A DNA stretch of 61,325 nucleotides from an uncultured Candidatus Actinomarina sp. (lineage in GTDB: Bacteria > Actinomycetota > Acidimicrobiia > Actinomarinales > Actinomarinaceae), in contig CACODT010000007.1 in assembly GCA_902626065.1 (NCBI GenBank), forward strand, positions 1 to 61,325, in the 5' to 3' direction. Under the pieces are notes generated by a model that was not told the DNA's origin, ran no database searches, and was given only the letters and a program-made list of their open reading frames with translations. Numbering within the stretch: the stretch's first letter is position 1; every line of letters starts with the position of its first letter. The position numbers and the translations under genes are program-made. Positions 4,256 to 42,100 of the stretch are shown here, piece after piece.

Positions 4256-5257
4256 ATGAAAATTGCAATTGTTGGAGCGACTGGCCTTGTTGGGAGAAAA
4301 ATAATTCAGCTATGCGAAGAGTATTTTGAAAAATCTGTTGAGTATCACTTATATGCTTCAAAAGATTCAGAAGGAAAAAAATTATTAGTTAATACAAAAG
4401 AAATTGCTATCAGAGAATTAACTTCTAAAAATCTTGAGTCATGTGATTTAGCATTATTTTCAGCAGGAGGAGAAAGATCTAAGGAATTTGCAAACGAGTT
4501 TGTAGACATGGGAGCATTCGTAATTGATAATTCATCAACATTTAGAATGGAAAAAACAATACCCCTTGTTGTTTATGGCATTAATGAAAATGTAATTGAA
4601 AAAAATTCTAAAATTATAGCAAACCCAAATTGCACAACTATGGCTTTAGTAATGGCATTAAAACCTCTTCATGATTGTTTTAATTTGGTAGGTATTGTTC
4701 CTGTTTCTTATCAAGCTGTTTCAGGATCTGGCAAGAGTGCTATTGAATCATTAGAAAATGAATTATCAAACTTATCAAATCCTGGTTCAGCACCAAAAAA
4801 AAATTATTATGATTCTCAAATAGCGAAAAATGTTATACCAATTGCTGGAAATATGACAGAAAATGGGTATACAGATGAAGAAATAAAATTTTCAAACGAA
4901 TCAAAAAAGATTTTAGATTTACCAGATTTAAATGTTGAGCCATCGAATGCAAGAGTTGGAGTAGATACAGGACATGGAATATTTTGTAGTGCAACATTTG
5001 AAAATAGCGTTGAAGTATCTAAAGCTATCGAGTCAATAAATTCTTTTGAAGGAGTTGAATACTGGAATGATTCTTATCCTACCCCTATTGACGCAGAGGG
5101 TAATAAAAATATTTTGGTTTCTAGGATGAGGGTTGGATTAACAAGTGACAAAATTTTAAATTTTTGGGCAGTTGGAGATAATCTTTTAAAAGGGGCAGCT
5201 CTTAATGCTGTTCAAATTGCGAAACACATAAGCAATAATGATTTCTATACCAAATAA
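4256..5257 (+). CDS. asd: aspartate-semialdehyde dehydrogenase
   Basis: This 333-residue enzyme reduces aspartyl phosphate to aspartate semialdehyde with NADPH, the step after LysC. The NADP-binding GATGLVG is at residues 7-13, the catalytic cysteine lies in NPNCTT (Cys126), and the active-site histidine region reads VGVDTGHGIFCSATFE. Length is normal. The start codon follows the lysC stop with no gap. The end overlaps the next gene (acyltransferase) by 20 bases. Confidence 0.96.
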   Translation: MKIAIVGATGLVGRKIIQLCEEYFEKSVEYHLYASKDSEGKKLLVNTKEIAIRELTSKNLESCDLALFSAGGERSKEFANEFVDMGAFVIDNSSTFRMEKTIPLVVYGINENVIEKNSKIIANPNCTTMALVMALKPLHDCFNLVGIVPVSYQAVSGSGKSAIESLENELSNLSNPGSAPKKNYYDSQIAKNVIPIAGNMTENGYTDEEIKFSNESKKILDLPDLNVEPSNARVGVDTGHGIFCSATFENSVEVSKAIESINSFEGVEYWNDSYPTPIDAEGNKNILVSRMRVGLTSDKILNFWAVGDNLLKGAALNAVQIAKHISNNDFYTK

Positions 5258-5909
5258 CGTTCCAAGAAAAAAAAGGATTTTTTTAGGACCTTTAAGCAGG
5301 AAACTACTAAAAATTTCTAAATGGGATATTACTGGAGAATTCCCAAATTATAAAAAAATTATTTTAATTGGGATTCCACATACAGCTAATAGAGATGCTT
5401 GGTATGCCCTTCTTGCAATACTAGCTTTAGATTTAAAAATAAATTTTTTTGGAGCAAGATGGATATTTACTAGACTTCCTAGTCCTTACACCTTTTCTAA
5501 AGATGTTGATAGGTTAGGAATTCCTTGGCCATTAGGATGGCTACAAAAAATTATTCTTTTAAAATTAGGTGGTATTCCAGTGTACAGAAATAAGTCGAAG
5601 GGTTTGATTAAAGGTGCAATTAAAGAATTTTCAAAGATGGATGAATATATTCTTGCAATTGCTCCTGAAGCGGGAACGGAACAAGCTAGAAAATTTAGAA
5701 GTGGGTTTTATTATTTAGCCAAAGAACTTAACATTCCTTACTTGCCTATTGAGTTAGATTTTAAAAATAGACGTTTCCATATTCAGAAGGAACAATTTGT
5801 GTCTTTGTCGTTTGAAGAAGAGTCTTTAAAAATTATCTCGCTTTTCGAAGGTGTAGGAGGAGCTTTAAGAGAATTTAAAATGCTAGAAGAAGAGGAACAA
5901 AAAGACTAA
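5238..5909 (+). CDS. 1-acyl-glycerol-3-phosphate acyltransferase family protein
   Basis: This 223-residue PlsC-type (LPLAT) acyltransferase probably acylates lysophosphatidate or a related lipid at the inner membrane. It has the acceptor motif PHTANRDAW (the NHxxxxD block of the family, H and D four residues apart) and the third family block as PEAGTEQARKFRSGFYYLA. Hydrophobic stretches (YALLAILALDL, WPLGWLQKIILLKL) suggest membrane association. The start lies inside asd (20-base overlap); its end overlaps the convergent DUF554 gene by 35 bases, which is large for a convergent pair. The exact acceptor lipid is unknown. Confidence 0.82.
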   Translation: MISIPNNVPRKKRIFLGPLSRKLLKISKWDITGEFPNYKKIILIGIPHTANRDAWYALLAILALDLKINFFGARWIFTRLPSPYTFSKDVDRLGIPWPLGWLQKIILLKLGGIPVYRNKSKGLIKGAIKEFSKMDEYILAIAPEAGTEQARKFRSGFYYLAKELNIPYLPIELDFKNRRFHIQKEQFVSLSFEEESLKIISLFEGVGGALREFKMLEEEEQKD

Positions 5910-9327: not shown

Positions 9328-11388
9328 TTAGAGTTTTCTAGATGAATTAATTACAACAGATAAACTTGATAGAGCCATTGCTAATGCTGCCATACTTGGC
9401 ATAATATTCCCACTTACAGCTATTGGGATCATTATGACATTGTAAATGAATGCAAAGAATAAATTTTGAGCGATTCTTCTATTTGAATTTTTTGAAATAT
9501 TAAAAATGCTACCTAGCTTCTCAAGGCCACCTTTGAAAATAATTATGTCACTTACGCTTTGTGCTATTTGAGTACTTTGAGCAAAAGACAAACTTACATT
9601 CGCTTGTTGTAAAGCTGGAGAATCATTTATTCCATCTCCAACGAAACCTACTTTTTTGTTTCTTTGTTTATTTTTTATATATTCTAATTTATCTTCCGGA
9701 GATTGATCACCATACACTTTTTCTATATTTAGGTTAATTCCAATTTCTTTTACTTTTTCAGATTTGTCACCAGACAAAATTTCTAACTCATAATCTTTTG
9801 AGAGACTTTTAATTAATTCTTTATTCACAGTTTCATCTTCTACTAGCTTGACTCTATATTCTTTATCATTAATTTTTAAAATTAGATCGTTGATAAGATT
9901 ATCGACTGACTTTGTGACAGTTATATTTTTATTTTCTACGATCCCACTTACGCCAACACCTGGAGTTTCCACAAATTTCTCTACAGGTAAAAGTTCCAAA
10001 CCCTGAATTTCTGATTCTAAGAGTATGCTCTTAGCTATTGGATGGTTTGAGTTCTGTTCAACTGAAGCAAGTATTCTAAGTATTTCATCACCAGCATCCT
10101 CTCCATTATCATCTAGAATGCTTTCGATTTTAAATATTCCAGATGTTAAAGTTCCCGTCTTATCAAAAATGATTGTATCTAATTGATTAAATCTTTGAAG
10201 ATAATCAAAATTTTTAAAGATAAAGCCATTACGATTTGAAATTGATGCGGTTCTGAATAAAACAATTGGAGTTGCAAGACCTAGAGCACATGGACACGCA
10301 ACAACCAAAATTGCTATTGTTGAGCTAATTGTATCTGGAAAACTATTATCAAAAACAAGGGCCTTAATTAGAAAATTTATAAAGCTTAAAATTAATATTG
10401 AGGGTACAAAAATATTTGTAACTCTATCAACAAGGTCTTGTACTTCTGGTTTTCCTGTTTGAGCTTTTAAAATTAACTTTTCGATGTAGTTGATTGTTGT
10501 ATCGCCAGCTTTCTTTGTTACTTCAATTTCTATTTCGCTACCAAGGTTTATGGAGCCCGATATTACATTGTCACCACTTTTTTTAAGTAGTGGTACAGAT
10601 TCACCAGATATGATACTTTCATCAACCTCTGAACTTCCACGTCTAACTATTCCATCTAAAGGAGCAATCTCACCTTTTTTAATTACTATTAGTTCACCAA
10701 CATCAATTAAATCTAGAGGCTTGCGAACAAGGGTTTGATTATCGTACACATTGACATCCTTAGGAATGCTATCAATGATAGAATCAGAAATTGATATTGA
10801 CGATTTTATTGAAATTTCTTCAATAGTTTTTCCAAGAAGGATAAAACTTATAATAAAACCACCTGTTTCTAAATACATAAGCTCACCATTATTTGGTAAC
10901 ACACCGATAATAAAAGAAGATAAACTACCAATCGAAATTAAGGTGTCCATATTGAAATTAAGTATTTTTAAATTTTTTAAGGCTGACAAATGAAACTTTC
11001 TTCCAAAGAAAAAAATAATTAAAGATCCAATTCCTAATGCCAATAAATTTTGATTATTTTGAATTAAAGGATTGATTGTAAGGGTCAACAAAAGAGATAT
11101 GAGAGGTATGGAGAACTTTGTAATATTGTTTTTTTTCTCTTCACTCACTTCTTCTTTAGCAGAGTATCCGATAGATCTTATTTTTTGTATATACTCATCA
11201 GAATTTTCATCATCAGGATTTATCTCTAAGACAGCTTTTTTTAATGGAAAGTTAACAACAACATCTTTTACAGAGTCTTCTTTATTTAAGACTCTCTCTA
11301 TTCTTGCAGCACATGCTGCACATGTCATTCCCTCAACAGATAGTACTAATGTTTTTGTATCAGCTGACAACGGTGTAGCCTTGTTCAT
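9328..11388 (-). CDS. copA: copper-translocating P1B-type ATPase
   Basis: This heavy-metal ATPase pumps Cu(I) out of the cytosol. Domains in order: one N-terminal HMA domain with GMTCAAC; about eight hydrophobic segments; the phosphatase-loop ISGESVP; the membrane metal site CPC in VACPCALGLATP; the phosphorylation site DKTGTLTSG; the P1B-specific HP motif in SNHPIAKSI; and the hinge GDGINDSPAL. At about 690 residues it is on the short side for a CopA with one HMA domain. I prefer the ATG at 11388; a TTG at 11406 would add six residues. Both lie inside the end of the chaperone gene upstream, so expression is coupled. Confidence 0.94.
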   Translation of the reverse strand: MNKATPLSADTKTLVLSVEGMTCAACAARIERVLNKEDSVKDVVVNFPLKKAVLEINPDDENSDEYIQKIRSIGYSAKEEVSEEKKNNITKFSIPLISLLLTLTINPLIQNNQNLLALGIGSLIIFFFGRKFHLSALKNLKILNFNMDTLISIGSLSSFIIGVLPNNGELMYLETGGFIISFILLGKTIEEISIKSSISISDSIIDSIPKDVNVYDNQTLVRKPLDLIDVGELIVIKKGEIAPLDGIVRRGSSEVDESIISGESVPLLKKSGDNVISGSINLGSEIEIEVTKKAGDTTINYIEKLILKAQTGKPEVQDLVDRVTNIFVPSILILSFINFLIKALVFDNSFPDTISSTIAILVVACPCALGLATPIVLFRTASISNRNGFIFKNFDYLQRFNQLDTIIFDKTGTLTSGIFKIESILDDNGEDAGDEILRILASVEQNSNHPIAKSILLESEIQGLELLPVEKFVETPGVGVSGIVENKNITVTKSVDNLINDLILKINDKEYRVKLVEDETVNKELIKSLSKDYELEILSGDKSEKVKEIGINLNIEKVYGDQSPEDKLEYIKNKQRNKKVGFVGDGINDSPALQQANVSLSFAQSTQIAQSVSDIIIFKGGLEKLGSIFNISKNSNRRIAQNLFFAFIYNVIMIPIAVSGNIMPSMAALAMALSSLSVVINSSRKL

Positions 11389-11615: not shown

Positions 11616-11810
11616 TTAAGCAGTCTCTTGAAGAATTCTTCCTCTTACTCTCGGGTATTTAACAGGAGCATGATTGAAACAATGCTCTCTTTTGTTGTAA
11701 ATACTTAATTGAGTACTACAGGATTCTTCTTTACAAACTCTGCCCTGGTCAAAACTTTTTGAAGGTCTTATACCACCTTTAATTTGACTTGCTTTTAATC
11801 CGTCAGTCAT
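11616..11810 (-). CDS. small zinc-finger protein, paralogue 1
   Basis: This 64-residue protein of unrecognised name carries a compact putative zinc site C-x4-C-x12-C-x2-H (Cys26, Cys31, Cys44, His47) embedded in GRVCKEESCSTQLSIYNK. It then has a conserved tail with HAPVKYPRVRGR. It is about half identical to the protein at 33174-33377, so the window holds a paralogous pair. The SxYN-x4-C-x2-H pattern recalls short zinc motifs in actinobacterial proteins, and nucleic-acid binding is plausible because both termini are basic. A perfect TGTGA-N6-TCACA palindrome lies 13-31 bases upstream of its start. The function is unknown. Confidence 0.75.
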   Translation of the reverse strand: MTDGLKASQIKGGIRPSKSFDQGRVCKEESCSTQLSIYNKREHCFNHAPVKYPRVRGRILQETA

Positions 11811-11841: not shown

Positions 11842-11915
11842 GCATAACAAAATATTAAAAAGCGTGCAAGTTATTACAAACTTTTTATTACAGATACGTA
11901 TAGTAACATCTGATT

Positions 11916-12152
11916 ATGGAAATCAAACTAGAATTTTGTATCACTTGAAACTACACACCCCGTGCAGTTAGTACGGTCGAAGATATCATAGAAAAGTATG
12001 GTAAAAAAATTAAATCTATAGATCTAATTCCTTCAAGTGGAGGTGTGTTTGAGTTGTATTTAAATGAAAATTTAATTTATTCAAAACGAGAAACTGGTCG
12101 ACATACAAAAGAAGGTGAAATATTAGATTTAATGGAAAAAGCACTTAGTTGA
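11916..12152 (+). CDS. SelW/SelT/SelH (Rdx) family selenoprotein, Sec encoded by UGA 11946-11948
   Basis: Reading the in-frame TGA at 11946-11948 as selenocysteine gives a continuous 78-residue protein starting MEIKLEFCIT-U-NYTPRA. The CxxU redox motif (Cys8, Sec11), the following Y-x2-RA, and the later LIPSSGGVFELYLN, LIYSKRETGR and GEI blocks are the defining pattern of the Rdx thioredoxin-like family (SelW, SelT, SelH, Rdx12). These proteins are thought to act in thiol redox control. A 17-nt hairpin begins exactly 11 nt after the UGA. The gene ends at TGA 12150-12152, overlapped by the TTG start of the TSUP permease. No strong Shine-Dalgarno is visible. A weak promoter (TTACAA 11874-11879, TATAGT 11899-11904, 19-bp spacer) may serve it. 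Confidence 0.9.
11946..11976 (+). promoter_or_regulatory. UGA Sec codon plus bacterial SECIS hairpin (SelW-like gene)
   Basis: After UGA (11946-11948) come 11 unpaired bases. A 6-bp stem CCGUGC/GUACGG (11960-11965 with 11971-11976, one G-U pair) then closes a five-base loop AGUUA that carries a G-U pair of bases at its apex. The 17-nt hairpin size and the 11-nt spacing are those of the minimal E. coli fdhF SECIS bound by SelB. This is seen directly in sequence; the SelB interaction is inferred. Confidence 0.8.
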
Positions 12153-12883
12153 CATTTCCATTCGATCTTTCTTTAATTGAACTTGTTTTTATTTCAGTTT
12201 TGTTATTTGCAAGTGCAGCAATACAAGGGATCCTAGGTTTTGGTTTCGCTGTAATTTCCTCCCCAATACTTGTTCAAATTGAACCGCTTCTTGTTCCTCA
12301 GATTCTAAGCCTTCTGGCTTTACCTATGGCATATCGAATATATCAACGGGAAAAAAAAGAAGTAGATTGGAAACCATTTAAATTTTTGTTTTTAGGCAGA
12401 GTGATTGGAGGTCCCTTAGGATTACTACTTTTGATCAACTTGAATGAAAGACTTTTATCCATAAGTGTTGGAGCTATTGTTTTTTTCGCAGGGGTTGCAA
12501 CATTTAATGAATGGACTTTAGAAAGGAATAATCAAACCTCATGGATTGCTGGATCACTGTCAGGAATATTTGCAATGATTGCTGGAGTAGGAGGTCCTCC
12601 AATAGCAATTTTATACAGGGGAGCTTCTGGCAAAGAGTTCAGACCCTCCCTTAATGCTGTGTTTACTTTTGGAATAATAATAACTTTAAGCCTCCTTTTT
12701 ATTAGTGGTGAGATATATAGGGATCATATAGTTTTAATTTTATATTTAGCAATACCTGTTGCATTAGGACTAAAACTATCTTCTTCACTATTTTCAGATG
12801 TTTCTGATGCAACAATTTCAAAAGGAGTGACATACTTCTCTATAATTTCTGGATTAATTGTTATATTCAGAAATATAATTTAG
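12149..12883 (+). CDS. TSUP (TauE/SafE) family membrane permease
   Basis: This 244-residue protein has about seven to eight hydrophobic segments and the TauE/SafE hallmarks: the N-terminal GILGFGFAVISSPIL, and in the second half a repeat-like IAGVGGPPIAILY. The family exports or imports sulfur-containing anions (sulfite, sulfoacetate, sulfolactate, thiosulfate); the substrate here is unknown. It starts at TTG 12149, sharing TTGA with the selenoprotein stop, so it is translationally coupled to that gene. This links the permease to a redox selenoprotein. Confidence 0.85.
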   Translation: MTFPFDLSLIELVFISVLLFASAAIQGILGFGFAVISSPILVQIEPLLVPQILSLLALPMAYRIYQREKKEVDWKPFKFLFLGRVIGGPLGLLLLINLNERLLSISVGAIVFFAGVATFNEWTLERNNQTSWIAGSLSGIFAMIAGVGGPPIAILYRGASGKEFRPSLNAVFTFGIIITLSLLFISGEIYRDHIVLILYLAIPVALGLKLSSSLFSDVSDATISKGVTYFSIISGLIVIFRNII

Positions 12884-41077: not shown

Positions 41078-42100
41078 TTGAGATTAACTGAATACTCTCA
41101 CGGTGCTGGTTGAGCATGCAAACTCTCACCTAGTGAGCTTGCTCAAGTTTTGACGCAATTTAAAAATCATAATGCTACAAAGTCTCCTAACATTTTAGTC
41201 GGGTTGGATAATCCTGATGACGGAGGAGTAATTGAAGTTGGAAATCAAAAGATAATTCAAACAGTTGATTTTTTTACTCCCATTCTCGATAACCCTTATG
41301 ACTGGGGTAGAGTAGCAGCAGCAAATGCATTGTCAGATGTTTATGCAATGGGGGGAGAGCCACTCTCAGCTTTGCAATTAGTTTGTTGGCCACGCAACGA
41401 TATAAGTTTTGACATACTATCCGAAGTCATCAAAGGAGGTCTTGATACGATGGAAGAAGCAAATTGTAAAATTATTGGTGGCCACAGTATCGATGACAAA
41501 GAACCAAAATATGGATTCTCGATTACAGGAATAATCAAAGATAAAATTTTTAAGAATAACGAAATTTTCAATGGTGATAAACTCTTTTTAACAAAACCAA
41601 TCGGAACTGGAATTATTACAACTGCAATAAAAAAAGGTATTGCTTCGGAAGAAAGTATAAAATTAGTAACCGAAATAATGACAAATCTAAATAATAGATC
41701 TAGAGATTTTTCAATAAAAAATAAAGCTAGTGCAATCACAGACATTACTGGATTTGGCTTATTAGGTCATCTATACGAAATGATAAAGAATACAGATTTA
41801 TCAGCAAAAATAAAGTTTGATAATGTTCCCCTTATTGAGGATATCCATGAATATTTAGATAATGGTATTTATCCATCTGGAAGCTTACGAAATTACGATT
41901 ATCTGAAAGACAAAGTAGTTACAGATTTAGATGAAGAATCTATAAAAATATTGTGTGACGCACAAACTAATGGGGGATTCTTAATTGCAATTCCAAATAA
42001 TGAAAATCTAATTTTTTCAGATGACTTACGTCTTGGTCATAATATATGGGAAATTGGTGAAATAAATTCTGAATATAATGAGAAGATAAATATTATTTAA
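41078..42100 (+). CDS. selD: selenophosphate synthase, itself a selenoprotein (Sec12, UGA 41111-41113)
   Basis: SelD makes selenophosphate from selenide and ATP, the selenium donor for selenocysteyl-tRNA. The gene starts at TTG 41078, five bases after a strong AGGAGG (41067-41072), and reads (M)RLTEYSHGAG-U-ACKLSPSELAQVL, with the catalytic Cys/Sec position encoded by in-frame TGA. The rest has ILVGLDNPDDGGVIEVG, the substrate loop TVDFFTPILDNPYDWGRVAAANALSDVYAMGG, IIGGHSIDD and ITDITGFGLLGHL. The full length is 340 residues. Gene callers starting at 41150 would lose the active site. A SECIS-like hairpin begins 11 nt after the UGA. It follows the aminotransferase gene and precedes a hydrolase by three bases. 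Confidence 0.95.
41111..41144 (+). promoter_or_regulatory. UGA Sec codon plus SECIS-like hairpin in selD
   Basis: UGA 41111-41113 is followed by 11 bases, then a perfect 5-bp stem CUCAC/GUGAG (41125-41129 with 41133-41137) around CUA. An outer GAGCA/UGCUC pairing (41112-41116 with 41140-41144) extends the structure back into the UGA itself. The 11-nt spacing equals that in the SelW-like gene and in E. coli fdhF. The apical loop shows no clear GU unless the closing pair opens, so it is weaker than the first SECIS. Confidence 0.65.

Follow-up and report, generated by a model that had tools for sequence, protein, structure and literature searches.

Does the TGA at positions 11946-11948 of this Candidatus Actinomarina contig end a short peptide, or does it specify selenocysteine (Sec)? 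In the window, that is, the whole 61,325-nt stretch that was analyzed, a forward-strand frame at 11916-12152 encodes 78 residues followed by a terminal TGA (12150-12152), and it is open solely when TGA 11946-11948, its codon 11, is read through. The sequence-only reading had proposed a hidden SelW/Rdx selenoprotein gene with a CxxU motif formed by Cys8 and Sec11, over an interval that takes in the terminal TGA. The frame, the family match and the translation bear out both gene and motif: the protein, with U at position 11, reads MEIKLEFCITUNYTPRAVSTVEDIIEKYGKKIKSIDLIPSSGGVFELYLNENLIYSKRETGRHTKEGEILDLMEKALS, and its C8-I-T-U11 motif (C8xxU11) lies directly after the first strand (residues 2-8 in the predicted model). 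A CxxU motif right after the first strand occupies the position of thioredoxin-like redox sites. Ordinary gene finders would overlook this gene, selW, with its one 'stop' codon read as selenocysteine.

The PF10262 (Rdx) match spans the TGA with an E value of 3.1e-17 and 63 bits (cut-off 22.6 bits) and runs the whole length of the family (profile positions 2-73 of 74); a search of the gene's own genome likewise returns a match with one TGA inside. The protein also passes TIGR02174 (CXXU_selWTH; 49.2 bits, cut-off 34.2). With Cys substituted for Sec, it covers the whole of NF041051 (SelTWH_Campy) at 77.7 bits versus an equivalog cut-off of 88, and is therefore not filed as a SelTWH_Campy equivalog within the SelT/SelW/SelH group. 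Its best sequence relative among solved SelW-related proteins is 2fa8 (E 7.9e-8). An AlphaFold model built from 14 homologs has a mean pLDDT of 95.5, and a Foldseek search with this model gives 2fa8 as the best solved structure (TM 0.85-0.91), with mouse SelW (2npb) at TM 0.63; the predicted fold is thus thioredoxin-like, as in these two proteins. Compared with the Cys-type Rdx proteins of Agrobacterium (Atu0228, 2fa8), Neorhizobium and Halobacterium, the predicted model has the same fold as 2fa8 and an aligned active site, whereas the second motif position is Cys in those proteins and Sec in Actinomarina. The protein is probably a selenenyl-sulfide thiol oxidoreductase, and we infer a redox activity for it.

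A premature TGA after a short first open part is also what would be left by decay, that is, by mutation of TGC to TGA in a Cys-type Rdx gene from which only a 10-residue peptide is still made. The distribution of the TGA speaks against such a pseudogene. The Rdx gene was found in 37 of 42 genomes of the genus, with exactly one TGA in each of the 37 copies, and class-wide in 154 of 395 genomes, nearly all copies among the matches listed having one TGA; one class copy (G045) has no stop inside. The five genus genomes without an Rdx match are 66 to 83% complete, and the missing gene likely reflects this incompleteness, although gene loss is possible. In named public genomes, the TGA occupies the Sec position at 80 of 80 loci from Actinomarina, Chloroflexota, Neomarinimicrobiota and Bacillaceae, these being the best 80 of 504 matches and hence a biased sample. 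Homologs from Halobacterium and Neorhizobium align across the TGA with Cys (TGC) at U11, so that the in-frame UGA falls where relatives have Cys or Sec, as in a bacterial selenoprotein. Downstream of the UGA, dN/dS against genus relatives is 0.07 to 0.34, and on this measure the part beyond the TGA is under purifying selection. Together with the covarying RNA hairpin and the full Sec machinery described below, genus-wide conservation under such selection refutes the pseudogene, to which we attach almost no credence.

Several of the loci collected for this comparison have features of their own. In Thermomicrobium roseum (NC_011961.1; 1055-1237 of locus L195) the annotated Rdx CDS begins downstream of the in-frame TGA, which leaves the deposited protein without its redox site. 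On the 690-kb plasmid NZ_CP089998.1 of Cytobacillus spongiae, selD and selA flank a Sec-type selW (1001-1216 of locus L198) that is absent from the annotation, possibly as a mobile Sec cluster. NYXO01000052.1 (L081, labeled Euryarchaeota) and NZKG01000031.1 (L090, labeled Marinoscillum) have the Actinomarina gene order and high identity, and are probably mislabeled or mis-binned. A phage origin of the Rdx gene was considered and rejected, since no relative was found in phage records or viral contigs; plasmid records held just distant relatives, with less than 60% identity.

Insertion of Sec at a bacterial UGA calls attention to the RNA that follows it. A 17-nt hairpin, CCGUGC-AGUUA-GUACGG, had been placed 11 nt after the UGA and called an ideal bacterial SECIS. 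We located it at 11960-11976 on the forward strand, separated from UGA 11946-11948 by 11 nt, and it is the minimum free energy structure of the local RNA at -8.2 kcal/mol. Its position, fold and covariation sustain the description, but its energy is ordinary (z -0.73, with 45 of 200 shuffles folding equally well), and energy alone was rejected as evidence for a SECIS. The significance of the hairpin comes instead from position and homology. A strict scan for SECIS-like hairpins took in both strands of the window; of 2,559 TGA triplets, 8 were positive, and TGA 11946 is the sole one of these eight with at least 50 open codons downstream. A laxer scan, covering the window and three other stretches of the genome, returned TGA 11946 and one other, at window position 10004. 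No Rfam family reached its gathering score in the window, and near the selW gene there were chance matches alone. The TGA at 10004 lies opposite a P-type ATPase gene.

We compared the 6-bp stem over 45 distinct sequences, drawn from Actinomarina and further members of the class. Of the 270 cells, 269 (99.6%) are paired and 13 are changed on both sides; the covariation score is higher than that of every one of 500 shuffles, and slid versions of the stem alignment are at most 49% paired. In the outer pair, which exchanges among C-G, U-A and G-C, the third position of a Pro codon pairs with the first position of a Val, Ile or Leu codon farther downstream, so that the codons are coupled within the genus as CCC-GTN, CCT-ATN and CCG-CTN. 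The protein sequence demands no such coupling, and an RNA helix, not coding alone, therefore accounts for the link. The loop is NGUNN in 36 of 36 distinct hairpins from Actinomarina and the rest of the class. The element is thus a hairpin directly downstream of the UGA, with the G of a GU in its loop and a conserved structure, as expected of a bacterial SECIS. The short SECIS hairpin of E. coli fdhF follows its UGA at about 11 nt and has GU in its apical loop; the Actinomarina hairpin is like it in spacing and loop, differs from it in sequence, and, unlike it, has no bulged U that we could see. At most loci from other phyla (L108, L111-L144, L146-L154) the NGU of the loop lies 21 nt after the UGA, versus 17 nt here. 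Those loops (AGUNU, CGUGC) are of the same kind but lie 4 nt farther from the UGA and over different codons, which suggests that the RNA element has moved with respect to the protein sequence. In the two Cys-type Rdx genes checked, from Halobacterium and Neorhizobium, no such hairpin folds at the equivalent place.

The nearest named relatives of the genome (G000; 1.02 Mb in 20 contigs) are Candidatus Actinomarina/OCS155 genomes, in agreement with the streamlined marine actinobacterium that had been presumed as host, and it holds selA, selB, selC and selD. Either of two outcomes had been named as grounds to discard the selenoprotein reading, namely no homolog with Cys or Sec aligned at the TGA, or a genome lacking selA/selB/selC; neither is the case. 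SelA scores 378 bits against TIGR00474 (cut-off 267.9). SelB, which adjoins SelA, spans the whole of TIGR00475 and has the C-terminal SelB-wing_3 domain, at 214.6 bits and thus below the NCBIfam equivalog cut-off of 242.25 bits. The tRNA-Sec, with anticodon UCA, scores 71 bits and is reported by ARAGORN as SeC (tca). Among the 42 genus genomes, Rdx was found in 37, selD in 40, tRNA-Sec in 40 and selA (above cut-off) in 34; all eight genomes that are at least 90% complete have every one of the four. A general reassignment or suppression of UGA, for instance to Trp, would open the selW frame without any selenocysteine, and this openness is its sole support. We rejected this explanation and consider it extremely improbable, because TGA is the ordinary terminal stop of selW itself, tRNA-Sec (UCA), selA and selB are present, and codon 11 aligns with Cys in relatives.

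Searches of the genome for further selenoproteins were made for single families only (Rdx, SelD, AhpC-TSA and CMD/AhpD). The selenophosphate synthetase gene, selD, at 41078-42100 (+) of the window has an in-frame TGA at 41111-41113, as the U of GAGU in the GAGUACK motif; it matches TIGR00476 at E 1.1e-111 with one TGA, and at E 4e-113 when read through. Each of the 40 genus genomes in which selD occurs has one TGA in its best selD match, and selD is itself a selenoprotein gene. A hairpin is present downstream, but its register varies among genomes, and we do not base the case on it. The CMD/AhpD search gave one match with one in-frame TGA, at about 31716 of contig C2 (1624-1626 of locus L203), in the context SISNECEYUIRAHLYDL, where CEYU is a CxxU motif, and a hairpin UCUCC-GGUC-GGAGA follows the UGA. 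On a single-genome basis, this AhpD-like gene is a candidate third selenoprotein of the genome. The AhpC-TSA peroxiredoxin genes of the genome have no TGA inside.

The family, the predicted fold, the CxxU motif, the covariation of the SECIS, selA/B/C/D, conservation in the genus and an invariant overlap with the next gene (see below) can all be read from the DNA, and we infer Sec insertion in the cell. SelB, carrying Sec-tRNA(Sec), would bind the hairpin that follows UGA11 at 11 nt, and Sec would be placed at this codon; the product would be a thioredoxin-like protein of 78 residues whose redox site is Cys8-x-x-Sec11. Counted against this are the SelB score under its equivalog cut-off, the ordinary energy of the hairpin and the five genus genomes without an Rdx match. 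With these points weighed, we regard it as nearly certain that this Candidatus Actinomarina genome has a working SelW-like (Rdx) selenoprotein gene with Sec inserted at UGA11.

Among marine selenoproteins, the SelW-like family is already known as the most common, and the Actinomarina gene is another member of a known family. It shares with the SelW-like family of the Sargasso Sea and GOS data (pfam05169/Rdx PF10262; PMC1088965, PMC2398784) the CxxU motif, a short thioredoxin-like protein, a bacterial hairpin beside the UGA and a marine habitat. Those genes, 427 of them in GOS (PMC2398784), come from shotgun metagenome data, whereas the Actinomarina gene is seen, together with its machinery and neighbors, in one genome and across its genus. 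By text search, these reports make no mention of actinobacteria, and the main Actinomarinales genome paper makes no mention of selenium (PMC7771536). Within the partial coverage of our literature search, we found nothing that joins selenocysteine with Actinomarina, and an earlier report is possible. Newly added here are the host, the full Sec machinery, the conserved pairing and the conserved permease overlap. In a global ocean survey, the selenoprotein families named as most frequent are SelW-like (11.3% of marine selenoprotein genes), AhpD-like (9.5%) and SelD (9.1%) (PMC9402790), and candidates for all three occur in this one streamlined genome. This makes Actinomarina, a tiny bacterium abundant in the ocean, a plausible host for some of the selenoprotein genes that have for a long time been known solely as metagenome fragments. 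That a 1-Mb genome keeps four biosynthesis genes to serve just a few proteins bears on the survival of Sec under streamlining.

The selW-like gene is the first of an overlapping pair. A TauE/TSUP permease (12149-12883, +; PF01925 E 1.1e-23) has a TTG start that overlaps the selW stop in the tetranucleotide TTGA (12149-12152). This overlap occurs in 35 of 35 Actinomarina loci (the window, L075-L107 and L109) and, among the loci compared, is limited to Actinomarina; the TTGA is invariant though the last selW codon varies (AGT, GGT, GAT) and permease identity falls to about 60%. Compact genomes commonly have stop/start overlaps of four bases, and upstream of the TTG there are AT-rich hexamers, TTTAAT for example. 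Both would fit a permease that is translated independently, by an internal promoter or direct initiation at TTG, so that the selenoprotein is real and the overlap has no regulatory meaning. We lean slightly toward this explanation, even though it leaves an unchanging TTGA beside a variable codon and a diverged permease; moreover, in the 35 loci no SD-like motif before the TTG and no in-frame upstream start was found, and alternative starts downstream are scattered and inconsistent among loci. The same observations would suit coupled translation, in which ribosomes finishing selW arrive at TTGA and can start again on the permease. Permease translation that depended on ribosomes from selW would depend on decoding of UGA11 and hence on selenium. 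We tentatively put forward, as a rather doubtful proposal, that UGA11 acts as a selenium gate for a two-gene operon throughout Actinomarina, with reinitiation at TTGA only after Sec decoding; if so, permease synthesis would track selenium supply across Actinomarina. A sulfur or selenium oxyanion that has a connection with the SelW-like protein might be what the permease carries, either out of the cell or into it; our partial coverage of the literature yielded no report linking TauE/TSUP with selenium in bacteria. At one locus (L077, about 5234-5436) the permease match starts about 200 nt late, probably because the genome concerned has a frameshift or was misassembled there.

Upstream of selW, a TATAGT hexamer at 11899-11904 (+) is a probable -10 element: the 35 Actinomarina loci have TATAGT or TATGAT at a similar distance, about 11 nt, before the ATG, and no Shine-Dalgarno motif was seen by eye at the selW start. 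Such a short distance to the ATG suggests that the selW transcript may be nearly leaderless. On the reverse strand at 11616-11810 of the window lies a 64-residue Cys-containing ORF, which has no match in Pfam or NCBIfam and is 92 to 98% identical across Actinomarina, where its neighbors are often 45 to 80% identical. In many other class members (L051, L054, L058, L059, L064, L066, L067, L071 and L073), an amidohydrolase-like gene lies downstream of selW in convergent orientation.
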